From the IMG/VR virus record IMGVR_UViG_3300008261_000142, positions 1-57,729 of that record: a stretch of DNA of 57,729 nucleotides, one strand, 5' to 3'. The notes under the pieces were generated by a model. The model had not been told where the DNA came from. It made no database searches and saw nothing but the letters and a program-made list of their open reading frames with translations. Below are positions 5,861 to 57,729 of this stretch, in pieces. Each line of letters starts with the position of its first letter. The stretch's first letter is position 1. A program made the position numbers and the translations under genes. This DNA is from a virus.

Positions 5861-8800
5861 ACTGGGTACAGAGTAAGCGAAGCCTTTTCAGAAGTATAGG
5901 CTCCCTTGACGTGTGTCACTTCGATGATCCACGAACTCATCGTCTCAAGTCCAAGGTCTCCGCGATAGAGATCAGACATCACCACTTCGTTCTCTTCAGT
6001 GGTGAACACGGAGATCTTGTTGAGGGTTGTGCCGTTGATCAGGGTGACTTGGAAGTACCCTTGGACACCGCTGGTGCCTACTGCGTTCCCGAGAGGCTGC
6101 ATGCCGAGCCCCGTGTTCGGGAACTCGTTGCTCTCGTAGCACCAAACGATCTTGAGCTGGCCCCCGTAGGACGGGTAGCTTGTCTTGAACGTCTCGAGGC
6201 GCAGCCCTCCCGGCTTCATGGGAGTGAAAGCCTTGGCAGAGATCGTCGTTGTCTTGGCGTCGATCGCAGTGATGTCCGAGCTTCGAAGCATCGAACCTGC
6301 CTGTCCCTTGTAGTAGACCTGTACGCCGGCTGCGTAGATGAGCGATTTGGTCCCCGTGAGCCGGTAGTAGGGCACCACGTAGAACGGCGTTCCTACAGGG
6401 TACGAGGCGGGAGAGGTGCCAAAGCGGCCTCGGATCATTCCGACCAGCTCGTCAGGGTACCCGTTCTTCAAGAAGATGATCTCGTTGCCGATCAGCAACA
6501 GCTGGCGACCAGAACGCCATGCAGCGGCATCCAGAGTGAGGTCCTCGATGACAGCTAGGTCGGGTTGGTAGTCAGCCAGGATGCTGACCGGCTGTTCGTA
6601 GATCATCTCCGTAGTAGCAGGCAGCTCCTCGGCGAGCGTCCCTCGCACAGCGAGGATGCCATCGCCGAGGAAGCTGTAGGCGGTTCCGTCCCTCGAACCC
6701 CAGATAGCCGATTTGACAATCTTGGAACTGGGTCGCGAGGTCAGGAAGGCCACAGAGATCTCCGAGCCAAACGGAATCTCGAAGGCTTGGAAGTCCAGCA
6801 AAGCAGGCACGATCTCCGTAGAGCTCGGGGACGTTACCGGGAGGTCGTCCAGGCCTGGCGTGCTGTCCGTAAACTCGAGGAGAGGCGGGTTGTAGGTATC
6901 GACCATGGCCTCGATCTCGATCTTGCTCGAGTTGACGAAGCGACGGACGTTCATGATCAGGAACTGAAGGCCCTCGCCCTCGAATTCGCTGACCTTGAAA
7001 CGAGAACCCGGCACGGCCATCTGGCAGCCGTGGTTCATTTCGAAGTTGAAGCTGGAGAGGTTGGTGAGCCCTTCCTGCTGCCGGCGAGGGGCAATTCGAG
7101 AAATCGAGTCTCGGTCCTTGGTGATCTCGATCGGGACTTTCTGAGCCCTCTGAGTCTCGTACTCGGAGATCTGTCCGCTGTCGATCACCTTGATCGGCAC
7201 CTCTCGGTAGTTGCGATCACGGTCCTTGTAGGTGAACGCGACAACGTCGATCGGGCGGTCGCCCTGGACTGCCGTCATCGACGGTTCTTTGAGTACCAAG
7301 TCCTTGGGGATATCGAGGCCGGTTGCCTCGTATCGGATCAGTCGGAACACGTACTTTCCGACCGACACATCCCAAGCGATCATCAAGCCGGCGTCTTGGA
7401 GGATGGGGGAGAGTGCGCTCTCCAAGCCCTCGCCATCGAAGATGGCAATGCTGCCTCGAATCTTTTCCTTCTGCATCTGCTCTGCAGCTGCTTCGATCGA
7501 TCTGGTGTCGAACTTGCTGCGGTCGCGACCTGCTCCGTACGGGAACTTGGCGAACAGCAGCTGATCAATCATGTGGATTGGATTGACACCGTCGGTGCCC
7601 GTAGTGCTGCAGGGGCTTACGTAGCAAAAAATGCTGGGAGACGTTATTGCTCCAGAAACTCCCGGAGATCTCAGTACAGGGATACTGATATTTGAGTATG
7701 TTTGCTTGATATATTCGTCCAAAACCTCAGGCCCCAAAAATACTTCTAGGCATCCGCGAGTAGAAAGCGTACCAGCACTGGTTTGATTTTGCGTAAACGA
7801 AGTGGAGCTGTCCTGCACTGCTTTAGCAATCCAAAAATACTTCCATACATTGTTTTGATAAAATAGCCCAGGAAGGCGTGTATAGTCTAGGCAGTAGATT
7901 CCAATGATGCCTCCAGCAAAAATAATCTGATTTAAAGCTTCAATTCTTTGATTTGTGGGTGTTGGAAGTATGTCTGACCAAAGAACTCGAGTGTTGCTAG
8001 CAGGAGCACCCTGGCCGGTGTCCATGCAAAGTCTGTCTAGGACAGTTAACTTTCTTTCTAACTGTGTGTAAGAATAGGCCGACAAAATCATGGCACTATC
8101 ATCGCTGCCAGTCCAAGAACTTACAGGCCCAAAATTGCCTCCATATAGATTTCCGGCAAATATAAACCCGTTATGCAAATAGCCTTTTCTAGAGATTGGA
8201 GAATTGTTAATAGTGTCGTCGTACCATTCTTTATAAGAGGGCTTAGACTTATCTCCAACTAGAGGCGTCTCGAACGCCGATGAGGTGATCTCGCTGTAGC
8301 AAGGACATGTCACCTCGTATTCGAGACGAGGCCAATTTCGAGACTGTCCAAGATTCTTGTCTTCCCAGACAATCTTTGTTGCTAGCGGAAAACGGGTATC
8401 GACCGGCAGGCCAGAGATCACTGGGTCGTCTCTGAATCCCCAGTAGATGCGGAACGTTCCCTCAGACTGGCTGCTTCCTTGAGCGTTCTGAAGCGTGATT
8501 GAAGATCCCGAAGGGTGGCTGCCTGGCGAGATGTCGCCGCTCCAGATCAACTCGCCGTTCTGCCAGATGGCCGATAGCTTTGATGCAGGGCCTACGCAGA
8601 GAGCATGCACAGCACGCTCCCAGATCTGAGGCGGCTCGGGAACACCGCCTCCGCCCTTTCCCAGCTCAGGTGGGGTGTCTACCCCACCCCCAAGATCGGT
8701 GAATGCGGTGGCGTCCTCGACCCACAGAAACACGGGACCCACACGCTCACGACCGATGACCAGAGGGATGTAGGCCCCCATGGTCGCGCTAGAGCCCAAG

Positions 8801-52230: not shown

Positions 52231-52457
52231 TACTGCACCTTGAGGAAGGCTGTCTTTTGCAGCCGGCTGTAGCGGATGCGGATCGTCTTCATGCCGATCT
52301 GGGCAAGCTCATCGATGTTGATGTACTTGCCGGAAGGCGTCATGAAGTCCAGCTTCTTGTCGAGGTCCGCCTGGGCTTGCTTGATGGTCGTGTAGTCACG
52401 ACCGTAGGCAGGCACCAGAGGCTCGAGACCACGAAGGTCGATTTCGTAGATGCTCAT
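52230..52457 (-). CDS. Small protein downstream of ribozyme A
   Basis: 75 residues starting MSIYEIDLRGLEPLVPAYG; later KTIRIRYSRLQKTAFLKV. Its ATG follows directly after the last base of hammerhead A, so there is no classical leader; an AGGG in ribozyme stem II lies nine bases from the ATG. Function unknown. Confidence 0.6.
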   Translation of the reverse strand: MSIYEIDLRGLEPLVPAYGRDYTTIKQAQADLDKKLDFMTPSGKYINIDELAQIGMKTIRIRYSRLQKTAFLKVQ

Positions 52458-52510
52458 GCGGTTTCGCCCTGCTGGGGCTCATCAGGCACCGAGCTATACG
52501 GTGCGACCGC
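52458..52510 (-). ncRNA. Type III hammerhead ribozyme A
   Basis: Minus-strand RNA: stem III GCGG/CCGC; U then C17 (cleavage between 52505 and 52504); stem I GCACCG-loop UAUAGCU-CGGUGC; core CUGAUGA; stem II GCCC-CAGCA-GGGC; core GAAA. All pairs are perfect. It fills the whole space between the stop at 52511-52513 and the ATG at 52457. After cleavage the ribozyme stays on the downstream mRNA as a 5'-OH end. Confidence 0.9.
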
Positions 52511-52753
52511 TCAGGAGGACTTCTCAAGCTGATCGGCAAGGTTGGCGATCAGGCCAGAGACGCCCATCAAGTGGCTGGCGTACACAGGATCGTGCTCGTC
52601 GTGTGTGTTGGCCTCGTATTCGATGTGTTGTGCCAGCTCGATGAGTTGCTTGACCGCTACGTCAAGCTCCTCCGTGTTCAGGTACTTGCGGCTGAGGTGG
52701 AGCTGGAAGAACAAGCCCGATGGCTGCCCTGAAGGCGTCGATTGGTCGGTCAT
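52511..52753 (-). CDS. Small protein, unknown
   Basis: 80 residues from the ATG at 52753; helical second half (VKQLIELAQHIEYEAN, LIANLADQLEKSS). No SD is seen, and the start overlaps the next gene by 92 bases, so a later TTG start is possible. The stop touches hammerhead A directly. Confidence 0.5.
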   Translation of the reverse strand: MTDQSTPSGQPSGLFFQLHLSRKYLNTEELDVAVKQLIELAQHIEYEANTHDEHDPVYASHLMGVSGLIANLADQLEKSS

Positions 52754-53098: not shown

Positions 53099-53262
53099 CA
53101 GGGAGTCCTGAGAACGATCTCGCAGATCGGTTCGTGGAGCCTGCAGATCCATAGGTAGCCGTGCTGTCCTTCCTTGGAGTTCTCGGCCTCTTCGACCGAG
53201 TCGAATGGTCCGACGAAGTCGAAGCCTGAGCCGATGTCTCCCATCACTAGTAGGTACTTCAT
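53098..53262 (-). CDS. Overlooked 54-residue protein
   Basis: The ORF is shorter than common gene-finder limits. ATG 53262-53260 overlaps the upstream stop (ATGA) and its own stop overlaps the next ATG (TGATG), so it is embedded in a coupled gene chain. It contains DFVGPFDSVEEAENSKE and QHGYLWICRLHEPICEIVL, a strand-helix-strand pattern. No family recognised. Confidence 0.65.
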   Translation of the reverse strand: MKYLLVMGDIGSGFDFVGPFDSVEEAENSKEGQHGYLWICRLHEPICEIVLRTP

Positions 53263-53951
53263 GCGTGTTGTAGTTCATCGTGGTCGATGAACTCGATGGG
53301 GAGTTCGACGGACCAGCAGAGACCGCAAGTCAGACACGACTCGGTCTTGCCGGTTTGCTCGGGGCAGGTCACAGCACCGGGGACGGATCCCTGCGTGGTT
53401 GCGACGATCTGACCCTTGATGCGCTTGTTGGTGCTGAAGCGCACCCACCAGCGGTCAGGGAAGTCTTTTCGCATGTCGGTGAGGCACTTCCAGCCCTCAC
53501 GGGCGGTGTAGCCGTAGACATGCAGGTTGGTGTGTCGAACGATCAGCTTGCGCCACATCTTGACGTAGCCGTCGGAGTAGAAGTCGCCGAGGATGTGCAG
53601 GCGCACAGCGAAGCCGTGCGGATGCATCCGTGCGAGCTCGGCAACTTCGCTTTGGATCTTGGCCTCGAGTTCGGGGCCATGTTGGAACCGATGTGCGAAC
53701 GGCATTGAGTTGCCGTAGCACTCGGCCCATCTGAGGCAGGTAGACGGGCAGGTTGCTCGCTCTTCGAGCGTGATGCTGAAGAGTGGGAACCCGCGCCACC
53801 GACCCTTGAGGATGGTGCCCTTGCCCTTGCCGAGCTTGCTGTTGTTCGCAACCGGCTTGAGGACATCGCGGCTGTCATCGACAGTGCGACGGCCCTTCGG
53901 ATGGATCGTGCGAGCTTCGGCCAGAGCAGGGTTGCCTGGCTTGAGTTTCAT
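53259..53951 (-). CDS. Conserved Cys-rich phage protein
   Basis: 230 residues. Cys patterns include ATCPSTCLRWAECYG and, near the end, VTCPEQTGKTESCLTCGLCW; between them is RLHILGDFYSDGYVKMWRKL and an HVYGYTAR segment. I recall closely similar uncharacterised proteins in phages of Alphaproteobacteria. The cysteines may hold an iron-sulfur cluster or zinc. The ATG follows directly after hammerhead B. Enzymatic role unknown. Confidence 0.65.
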   Translation of the reverse strand: MKLKPGNPALAEARTIHPKGRRTVDDSRDVLKPVANNSKLGKGKGTILKGRWRGFPLFSITLEERATCPSTCLRWAECYGNSMPFAHRFQHGPELEAKIQSEVAELARMHPHGFAVRLHILGDFYSDGYVKMWRKLIVRHTNLHVYGYTAREGWKCLTDMRKDFPDRWWVRFSTNKRIKGQIVATTQGSVPGAVTCPEQTGKTESCLTCGLCWSVELPIEFIDHDELQHA

Positions 53952-54004
53952 GCGGTTTCGCCCTGCTGGGGCTCATCAGTCGGCGCGATATACGCCGAGA
54001 CCGC
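53952..54004 (-). ncRNA. Type III hammerhead ribozyme B
   Basis: Stem III GCGG/CCGC; U-C17 with cleavage between 53999 and 53998; stem I UCGGCG-loop UAUAUCG-CGCCGA; core CUGAUGA; stem II GCCC-CAGCA-GGGC; GAAA. Stem I differs from copy A at several pairs, each compensated. It fills the gap from the stop at 54005-54007 to the ATG at 53951. Confidence 0.9.
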
Positions 54005-54211
54005 TCAGTCATCACGCTCGATGCCAGTGAACTCTACAGATTCACGATCGAGCTCTTCGGATATGCTGACTGTTTCGGGGAAGATCATCTCTTCATGGAT
54101 GATCTTTCTTGCCTGTTCAAGAGTCAGGTTCGGGTTGTCGTGCTCGAAAGAATATTCGAGCTCTTCCCACACCCTGACTACGCGGCTGCCGTAGACGGTG
54201 TACTTGGGCAT
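54005..54211 (-). CDS. Small acidic protein
   Basis: 68 residues from the ATG at 54211, which overlaps the previous stop (TGATG). YTVYGSRVVRVWEELEYSF then NLTLEQARKIIHEEM and acidic end. A common small phage fold; no function known. The stop touches hammerhead B. Confidence 0.6.
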   Translation of the reverse strand: MPKYTVYGSRVVRVWEELEYSFEHDNPNLTLEQARKIIHEEMIFPETVSISEELDRESVEFTGIERDD

Positions 54212-54420
54212 CAGCAGGCATCCTCCTCGGGCTGTCGTGAAGTGCTGTGGCGAGCGTGGCAATCGCGGAAGAACTGCGAGGACTTGCGGTAGATGTCCCT
54301 GAGCAGATCGACCGATTCCTTGTCTGCGATCAGGTACATCGTTTCCAGAGCAGCCCAGGCTGCGTTGGACAGAGCGATGCTCTGCTGGTACGCGATGGCG
54401 TACTTGGTCTTGTTTTCCAT
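54211..54420 (-). CDS. Small helical protein downstream of ribozyme C
   Basis: 69 residues from the ATG at 54420 (a longer frame runs into the ribozyme). Helical: AIAYQQSIALSNAAWAALET, DKESVDLLRDIYRKS, then CHARH. No family. Two bases separate the ATG from stem III of hammerhead C. Confidence 0.6.
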   Translation of the reverse strand: MENKTKYAIAYQQSIALSNAAWAALETMYLIADKESVDLLRDIYRKSSQFFRDCHARHSTSRQPEEDAC

Positions 54421-54422
54421 GT

Positions 54423-54475
54423 TCGGTTTCGCCCTTCTGGGGCTCATCAGCCGGCGGACTTTACGCCGGGACCGA
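54423..54475 (-). ncRNA. Type III hammerhead ribozyme C
   Basis: Stem III UCGG/CCGA, changed from GCGG/CCGC with compensation; U-C17, cleavage between 54470 and 54469; stem I CCGGCG-loop UAAAGUC-CGCCGG, again compensated; core CUGAUGA; stem II GCCC-CAGAA-GGGC; GAAA. The 3' end is two bases before the ATG at 54420. The stop of the small gene upstream lies within its stem I loop. Confidence 0.9.
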
Positions 54476-54580
54476 GCACTGGTCCGCGCCGCAGTTGCGG
54501 CAACGGAACCAGTGCAGGTTGCCGAGCTGCCCTAGGAAGAACAGTTCGCCGTAGCAGTGCTTGCAGGTGTCAGGAGTCAT
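54461..54580 (-). CDS. 39-residue zinc-ribbon protein ending inside a ribozyme
   Basis: From the ATG at 54580 to TAA 54463-54461. It has CKHC at 6-9 and CRNC at 27-30, a classic small zinc ribbon. The last codons (TGC TCG GTC CCG GCG TAA) are also the 5' part of hammerhead C, and the predicted cut falls exactly after the GTC codon, upstream of the stop. So a self-cleaved mRNA would have no stop codon. The start overlaps the previous gene by 11 bases; no SD is seen. Confidence 0.5.
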   Translation of the reverse strand: MTPDTCKHCYGELFFLGQLGNLHWFRCRNCGADQCSVPA

Positions 54581-54887
54581 GTCGCACTGCTACGTGGACG
54601 TACTTGGCACCTGGCCGTACTTGCTCGCCCTTCCACACCACGGTGTGCGGGGAGTAGTTGTACGAATCGGTCATGCCATCGAACGACCCGTAGGAGTAGT
54701 CGTTCATCAGGTCACGCCAGAACTCCAGCGGCCTGCTCCGATAGGTCTCGAGGTCCACTTCGATGTAGACGCTCGAACCCATGGAGTAGGTGCTGGAACG
54801 GACGGACAGCGGCTTGATGCCGCTGTCCTTGAGATACGACCGGATCGCCTTGGCGGTCTCAGTCGTACTGAGCATTGTAACAGTCAT
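54570..54887 (-). CDS. LPD29-like protein
   Basis: 105 residues from the ATG at 54887 with GAGGA upstream. The pattern TAKAIRSYLKDSGIKPLSVRSSTYSMGSSVYIEVDL...GSFDGMTDSYNYS matches the LPD29 type found in phages and polyvalent proteins (RTALKAAFPG..FSVRS..YSGGSSI..FDGM). LPD domains often act in anti-restriction or are delivered with DNA; the exact function is unknown. Confidence 0.6.
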   Translation of the reverse strand: MTVTMLSTTETAKAIRSYLKDSGIKPLSVRSSTYSMGSSVYIEVDLETYRSRPLEFWRDLMNDYSYGSFDGMTDSYNYSPHTVVWKGEQVRPGAKYVHVAVRHDS

Positions 54888-56196: not shown

Positions 56197-56859
56197 GAGA
56201 GTACGGTGGTACCGTAGCAGTCTCCATGCGAGTCGTTTTTGGCGAGCTCGCAGGATCGTCTAGGATCGACGATGGGGTAGGGGGGGCTATGGTGGGCCGT
56301 CCCTGTTGCCGATCGTCGATCCTAGCCAATGCCAGGCCGTCTACAAGACAGCCTTATGGAGGGATTCGAGTCGGTTGTTGCTGTTCGCAGAGGATTATTT
56401 GCCTTTGCGGGCAGAAACCGTTTTTCATTGCCGTTCGGTAAGCCCTTGTGAAACCTGGCTTTGTGAGAGTCAGGTCGAAAAAGGGCACTTTTGGCAAAAA
56501 TCCGTTACGCGAGGAGACATTTTTTGTGGAGAAATCCTCACATTTCCTCTTTTCAGTCGGAAATGTTTGTGCCTTTTACGGCAACCCCACCAAAAACATC
56601 TCCCGCGTAAGGGGGATTTGGGCACCTCTTATTTTCATTTTCGAAGAAATCGATGCAAACCCCACGGTTTACAAGGACTTACGACGAGCAATAAAAAAGG
56701 GGTACTTCCAAAAATCGATCGGCCTTTGTTTACAAGGACTTACGTCAAAAGTAGGGAAATCTTCTTTGCCCGAAAAGGTAAATGAAACCCTGGGCAATAA
56801 CTAACTTCCAGTACTCTCGGTTCGGTCCCCGTTAGGGTCCTCGATTTGCGAAAGAGTAG
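56197..56859. other. Non-coding region with inverted and direct repeats
   Basis: No convincing gene in this AT-richer stretch; two plus-strand ORFs (56306-56785, 56448-56804) lack codon bias, family likeness and ribosome sites. It contains a 14-bp perfect inverted repeat, CTAGGATCGACGAT at 56260-56273 and its inverse at 56312-56325, with a G-rich loop. It also has two copies of GTTTACAAGGACTTACG (56667-56683, 56728-56744), 61 bases apart, probably regulator binding sites or promoters. The small-gene operon may start from here. Confidence 0.5.
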
Positions 56860-56918
56860 CTTTCGGAAAAACTAAGTATGTCACCTAGTTTTTCCGAAAG
56901 CCGCTCCTTTTAGAGCGG
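56860..56918. terminator. Long hairpin pair downstream of gene 56927-57136
   Basis: A perfect 15-pair inverted repeat, CTTTCGGAAAAACTA (56860-56874) and TAGTTTTTCCGAAAG (56886-56900), and directly beside it CCGCTC-CTTTTA-GAGCGG (56901-56918). The pair lies eight bases after the stop of 56927-57136, so it probably ends that transcript, working in either direction. U/A tracts lie within the stem rather than after it. Confidence 0.5.
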
Positions 56919-56926
56919 TCGATCAG

Positions 56927-57136: not shown

Positions 57137-57150
57137 GTCTCTGTCTCCTT

Positions 57151-57205
57151 GCGGTTTCGTCCTTGGCTGGGACTCGTCAGTACGTGGCACCACCACGTAG
57201 ACCGC
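57151..57205 (-). ncRNA. Type III hammerhead ribozyme D
   Basis: Stem III GCGG/CCGC; U-C17, cleavage between 57200 and 57199; stem I UACGUGG-loop UGGUG-CCACGUA (seven pairs); core CUGACGA, the permitted variant; stem II GUCC-CAGCCAA-GGAC; GAAA. Stems I and II both differ from copies A-C with full compensation. It lies between the stop of 57214-57486 and the SD of 56927-57136. Confidence 0.9.
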
Positions 57206-57213
57206 GCTCGGCA

Positions 57214-57615: not shown

Positions 57616-57729
57616 TTTTGTATTCCGGAAATCGAAGCCTCGATTTTCGGAATGTACCAGGTTTGTAACATTTCTGTCATTCCGGAAATCGATGCTTCGA
57701 TTTTCGAAATGTACCAGGTTTGTAACATT
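57616..57729. repeat. Right copy of 114-bp terminal direct repeat
   Basis: Exact copy of bases 1-114. Together with the left copy it indicates circularity. Anything annotated in 1-114 is the same DNA as here. Confidence 0.9.

Follow-up and report, generated by a model that had tools for sequence, protein, structure and literature searches.

A type III hammerhead ribozyme of a tailed phage overlaps the end of a small zinc-ribbon open reading frame (ORF), and its predicted cut falls ahead of the stop codon of that ORF. The overlap of gene end and ribozyme is real and very rare, and a non-stop mRNA would follow from this anatomy if the ORF is translated. The ribozyme, referred to as copy C, is one of four copies (A to D), and the explanation favoured here, with moderate confidence, is that the four act as trimming sites on a polycistronic phage mRNA, one of which, at copy C, is overlapped by a small gene.

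The window, the whole stretch of 57,729 nucleotides that was analysed, is the 57.7-kb virus record IMGVR_UViG_3300008261_000142, which is assigned to a tailed phage on the basis of its terminase, portal, major head and tape-measure genes. The right part of the window is occupied by a cluster of small genes directed leftward. The four type III hammerhead ribozymes all lie on the minus strand (Table 1). Repeats are also present: a long inverted repeat, whose 20 pairs look perfect, occupies 56859–56901 on the minus strand, within the non-coding stretch 56197–56926, and the record ends in a 51-nt tandem repeat (57622–57729), 94% identical, with an inner inverted repeat in each unit.

Table 1. Hammerhead ribozymes, neighbouring genes and elements around copy C, in window coordinates.
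Feature	Coordinates	Strand	Remarks
Hammerhead A, type III	52456..52512	-	predicted cut 52505/52504; RF00008 37.2 bits; covariation
Hammerhead B, type III	53950..54006	-	predicted cut 53999/53998; RF00008 43.0 bits; covariation
Hammerhead C, type III	54421..54477	-	predicted cut 54470/54469; RF00008 46.7 bits; fold, covariation
Hammerhead D, type III	57149..57207	-	predicted cut 57200/57199; RF00008 22.2 bits; fold, covariation
GP88-like gene (PF17338)	53259..53951	-	starts at end of B; 34.1 bits against cut-off 24.4
Gene downstream of C	54211..54423	-	start 2 nt past computed ribozyme end
Zinc-ribbon ORF, 39 aa (CKHC...CRNC)	54461..54580	-	phrog_33891, E 6.6e-4; Bordetella phage protein; spans cut of C
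TAA stop of zinc-ribbon ORF	54461..54463	-	first 3 bases of loop I
In-frame TGC codon of C	54476..54478	-	aligns with TGA stop of A and B
Strong hairpin	54477..54514	-	inside zinc-ribbon coding sequence; ends one base before stem III of C
Upstream gene with LPD29 domain (PF18847)	54570..54887	-	29.1 bits against cut-off 27

The core of every copy contains the GUC cleavage triplet, CUGAUGA or CUGACGA, and GAAA. Loops close stems I and II, and stem III is open-ended, in agreement with type III. Their scores against the Rfam family Hammerhead_3 (RF00008) are all below the gathering cut-off of 48.5 bits, and a default Rfam scan of the window gave no match for A to D, so that a permissive scan was needed to reveal them. 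In this respect they differ from the curated members of the family, with which they share the core, the three stems and the open stem III; the low score is a matter of detection threshold, and core, stems and covariation are intact in all of them. Folded alone, each copy adopts the canonical type III fold as its minimum free energy (MFE) structure (4/4), and in a predicted fold of a longer stretch around C (54390–54500), stems I and II form and stem III is lost to other pairings. In the alignment of the four copies, all 60 pair cells are standard and 7 of the 15 pairs show changes on both sides, a covariation that was matched by none of 500 shuffles. Because of these paired changes between copies, all four ribozymes, C included, appear to have been maintained, to the extent that a small sample of four related sequences can indicate this.

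At copy C, the 3′ end of the ORF reads GAC CAG TGC TCG GTC^CCG GCG TAA, in which ^ marks the predicted cut. The first-pass annotation had placed the cut after the GTC codon and the TAA downstream in the stem I loop, and sequence and fold confirm both positions, loop I (54463–54457) opening with the TAA. The upstream cleavage product is predicted to carry a hairpin and a CUCGGUC end and to lack the zinc-ribbon stop. The upstream TGA ends at 52511 at copy A and at 54005 at copy B, adjoining stem III in both, and at D the upstream stop is separated from the ribozyme by 8 nt; these coordinates agree with the earlier description of stops that abut the ribozyme at A and B and precede it by eight bases at D. 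Copies A, B and D thus have, with genes on the same strand, the order of upstream stop, cut and downstream start. Copy C sits between genes, yet cuts ahead of the stop of the zinc-ribbon ORF. The core of C includes an ATG (54445–54447) in the frame of the downstream gene, to which it would add 8 residues; the corresponding ATG in A and B is not in the reading frame of the gene that follows.

The position of stop codons relative to hammerhead cuts was surveyed in a sample, rather than a census, of hammerheads on viral contigs and in a small number of bacterial genomes, collected with a descriptor that required core and stems. The set comprises at least 353 hammerheads (at least 263 of type I and at least 90 of type III) on at least 229 contigs, the four of the window included; genes were called with a home-made codon-usage caller, and the counts are approximate. 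The phage hammerheads listed lie between same-strand genes, almost always with the upstream stop first, then the cut, and then the next start. When only credible stops located before the cut and no more than 130 nt upstream are considered, ORFs reading across the cut being searched for separately, the median distance from stop to cut among the matches listed is 35 nt for type III (n = 55) and 46 nt for type I (n = 188). Among the same matches, the closest upstream stop lies 6 nt before the cut, and in most type III copies the downstream start comes some 20 nt later (median 19). Besides C, a single credible gene reads past the cut among the at least 353 hammerheads listed, namely a DUF7230 gene (34.3 bits against a cut-off of 27) at the type I hammerhead L286, whose stop is located 39 nt past the cut. 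Copy C is therefore a rare exception, not a unique one, and the survey upholds the view that a predicted cut removing a stop codon is exceptional among phage hammerheads.

Further ORFs with a stop apparently past the cut were set aside. Those at L022, L033, L059, L117, L090 and L210 were inspected and judged to be mis-called starts or doubtful ORFs, and those at L089, L102, L113, L115, L215 and L294 were dropped on the table alone, because they end 180–380 nt past the cut, as a downstream gene would if its start had been called too far upstream. In many copies of type I (e.g. L115, L038 and L048), the upstream stop ends 6–10 nt inside the ribozyme, so that the TGA of the core CTGATGA appears to act as the stop codon. 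Type I cuts are also found at tRNA genes. At L286 (IMGVR_UViG_3300025687_005299, + strand, 6871–6925), the cut is exactly at the 5′ end of tRNA-Tyr, the acceptor strand of the tRNA being the 3′ strand of stem I, and at L244 (IMGVR_UViG_3300001605_000031, + strand), the cut at 1502/1503 precedes the predicted 5′ end of tRNA-His by 1 nt and would leave this tRNA its extra G. Formation of tRNA 5′ ends is usually the job of RNase P, and L286 and L244 suggest that hammerheads form the 5′ ends of some phage tRNAs.

A strong hairpin, overlooked in the first-pass annotation, precedes the cut of copy C. The segment 54470–54514 has an MFE of -27.2 kcal/mol, and only 28 of 3000 synonymous recodings are equally stable. 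Stop-to-cut segments were tested for such folding in type III copies with a stop 15–90 nt before the ribozyme, by means of dinucleotide shuffles (p <= 0.05) and with gaps after other genes as controls; among the matches listed, 88% of 43 type III segments fold unusually well, compared with 25% of 252 control gaps. In type III loci, the hairpin directly precedes stem III, for example in L058, L067, L125 and L133. By the same folding test, copies A, B and D have no hairpin between stop and cut. Overlap of a gene end with the hairpin recurs, since in L058, L036 and L261 the stop codon itself is within the hairpin, and copy C is the extreme case of such overlap.

The comparison between copies further suggests how the stop came to lie past the cut. 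At the site aligned in A, B and C, the codons are TGA, TGA and TGC, respectively, and the similarity of the zinc-ribbon product to the Bordetella phage protein ends at residue 34, one codon before the TGC. In the same frame, loop I has TAT in A and B and TAA in C. Replacement of TGA by TGC, together with the end of similarity just before it, fits a loss of the original stop in C, and termination has probably shifted to the TAA of loop I, as judged by comparison with paralogous copies and with a single distant protein match. A TAA in loop I is found in 8 of the 90 type III copies among the matches listed, and two of the three frames entering copy C reach a stop inside the ribozyme, so that selection is not required to account for the stop of C.

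The zinc-ribbon ORF is probably a real gene, judging from several features of its sequence. Two CxxC motifs, which it has, are present in only 2 of 98 spurious ORFs; it matches phrog_33891, and its residues 1–34 show 35% identity over 34 aa to the Bordetella phage protein (database E 0.1). In addition, its first 11 nt are also the last 11 nt of the LPD29 gene, and overlap of a start with the preceding stop is an arrangement typical of coupled translation. It is rather unlikely that the 39-aa ORF is untranslated, in which case the upstream gene would end at 54570, the stretch 54569–54471 would be a tail with the usual hairpin, and no stop would be removed. This alternative draws on the modest codon score of the ORF, which 7% of same-length spurious ORFs reach, and on the Shine-Dalgarno site, none being clear by eye; copy C would then conform to the typical order of phage type III copies, i.e. 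stop, hairpin and cut. However, stop and cut would then be 100 nt apart, a distance at the upper extreme of those measured for near stops in the survey, and the motifs, the protein matches and the coupled start all speak for translation.

According to the favoured reading, that of mRNA processing, A to D would divide a polycistronic phage transcript, which is read leftward, into shorter mRNAs. Cleavage at copy C would leave the upstream fragment with a 3′ end behind the strong hairpin and give the downstream fragment its 5′ end. The zinc-ribbon gene would overlap this processing site, its second half encoding the hairpin and its stop being placed beyond the cut, probably through the loss of the TGA. 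If the RNA is cut in the cell and the ORF is translated, the complete zinc-ribbon protein would come only from uncut RNA, chiefly from the first ribosomes behind the polymerase, and ribosomes that follow after the cut would reach the end of the RNA without a stop and require rescue. Rescue of ribosomes on non-stop RNA by tmRNA is established in bacteria. This reading is favoured because core and stems are intact with paired changes in all four copies, because the surveyed cuts fall between the upstream stop and the next start, and because type III copies usually have a hairpin before the cut, as C does. Against it stand the missing hairpins of A, B and D and the loss of stem III in the longer predicted fold around C; in addition, the starts after A to C adjoin stem III and have no clear ribosome-binding site outside stem II, so that the ribozymes may have a part in downstream initiation.

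It had also been proposed that the overlap is a self-limiting switch, i.e. that the stop past the cut was selected, that translating ribosomes unfold the ribozyme, and that ribosome-free RNA cuts, becomes non-stop and ends zinc-ribbon synthesis. The anatomy permits this, the arrangement is rare and yet the ribozyme is maintained, and L286 supplies a second, unrelated case. Moreover, a toy kinetic model with assumed parameters predicts that complete protein would fall by 20–90% at 0.1–5 cuts per minute, which makes an effect on the protein plausible under those rates. Nevertheless, a selected switch is improbable. The predicted cut before the stop is confirmed, but the signature of stop loss and the presence of TAA in loop I elsewhere count against selection. 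Mutual exclusion of ribosome and ribozyme is expected at C, as had been claimed, but is not particular to it: at A or B, too, a ribosome that terminates on the abutting TGA would, given the usual ribosome footprint, lie over stem III and the cut site. The same gene and ribozyme were found together in no relative. The search of the viral collection yielded no terminase relatives; the GP88-like gene had a single relative (L007) and the LPD29 gene had nine (L008–L016), with no hammerhead nearby in any of them; hence no orthologue of copy C is available, and conservation cannot speak for a selected switch. A processing site with a tolerated overlap explains the same facts as the switch with less.

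There is only a slim chance that the ribozyme serves as a timer, with the first ribosomes making complete protein before the cut turns the mRNA non-stop and the gene off; if this were true, decay of the whole upstream polycistronic fragment might also be triggered. It is highly improbable that the ribozymes mainly control the downstream gene, with folding, cutting and upstream translation setting its initiation: at B, A and C, the start is found 0, 0 and 2 nt, respectively, past the computed end of the ribozyme, abutting stem III, and the AGGG in stem II is the only SD-like sequence, but most phage type III starts lie further on, as the survey median indicates, and D has a separate AAGGAG.

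The favoured reading follows an earlier proposal that clustered phage hammerheads process long transcripts into operon- or gene-length mRNAs, which was supported by cleavage of three such clusters in vitro and of one in E. coli (Perreault et al. 2011, PMC3088659). Copies A to D resemble those clusters in that several same-strand phage hammerheads flank single genes or short gene blocks; they differ in that the cut of copy C is inside an ORF, before its stop, and the main text of that paper does not contain the term 'stop codon'. Theta ribozymes at the 3′ ends of phage tRNAs (PMC10879173) are likewise small phage ribozymes that act as RNA processing sites, but they have an HDV-like fold, cut at tRNA 3′ ends and remove no stop codon. 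No paper on a stop-removing hammerhead overlap was found in a search of the openly accessible literature. In blastn searches of copies B and C against annotated phages, only short, chance-like matches were obtained; the one in Mycobacterium phage Gengar falls in an annotated DnaQ-like gene. As ribozymes, the four copies are ordinary representatives of a known kind, and the stop-removing overlap is a rare variant.

The surveyed phage hammerheads follow a sharp anatomical rule, being placed after a stop and before the next start and, in type III, usually behind a hairpin, and this rule supports the formation of mRNA ends as the role of phage hammerheads. Copy C and L286 break the rule, which makes them natural test objects for ribozyme processing versus translation at one stop codon.
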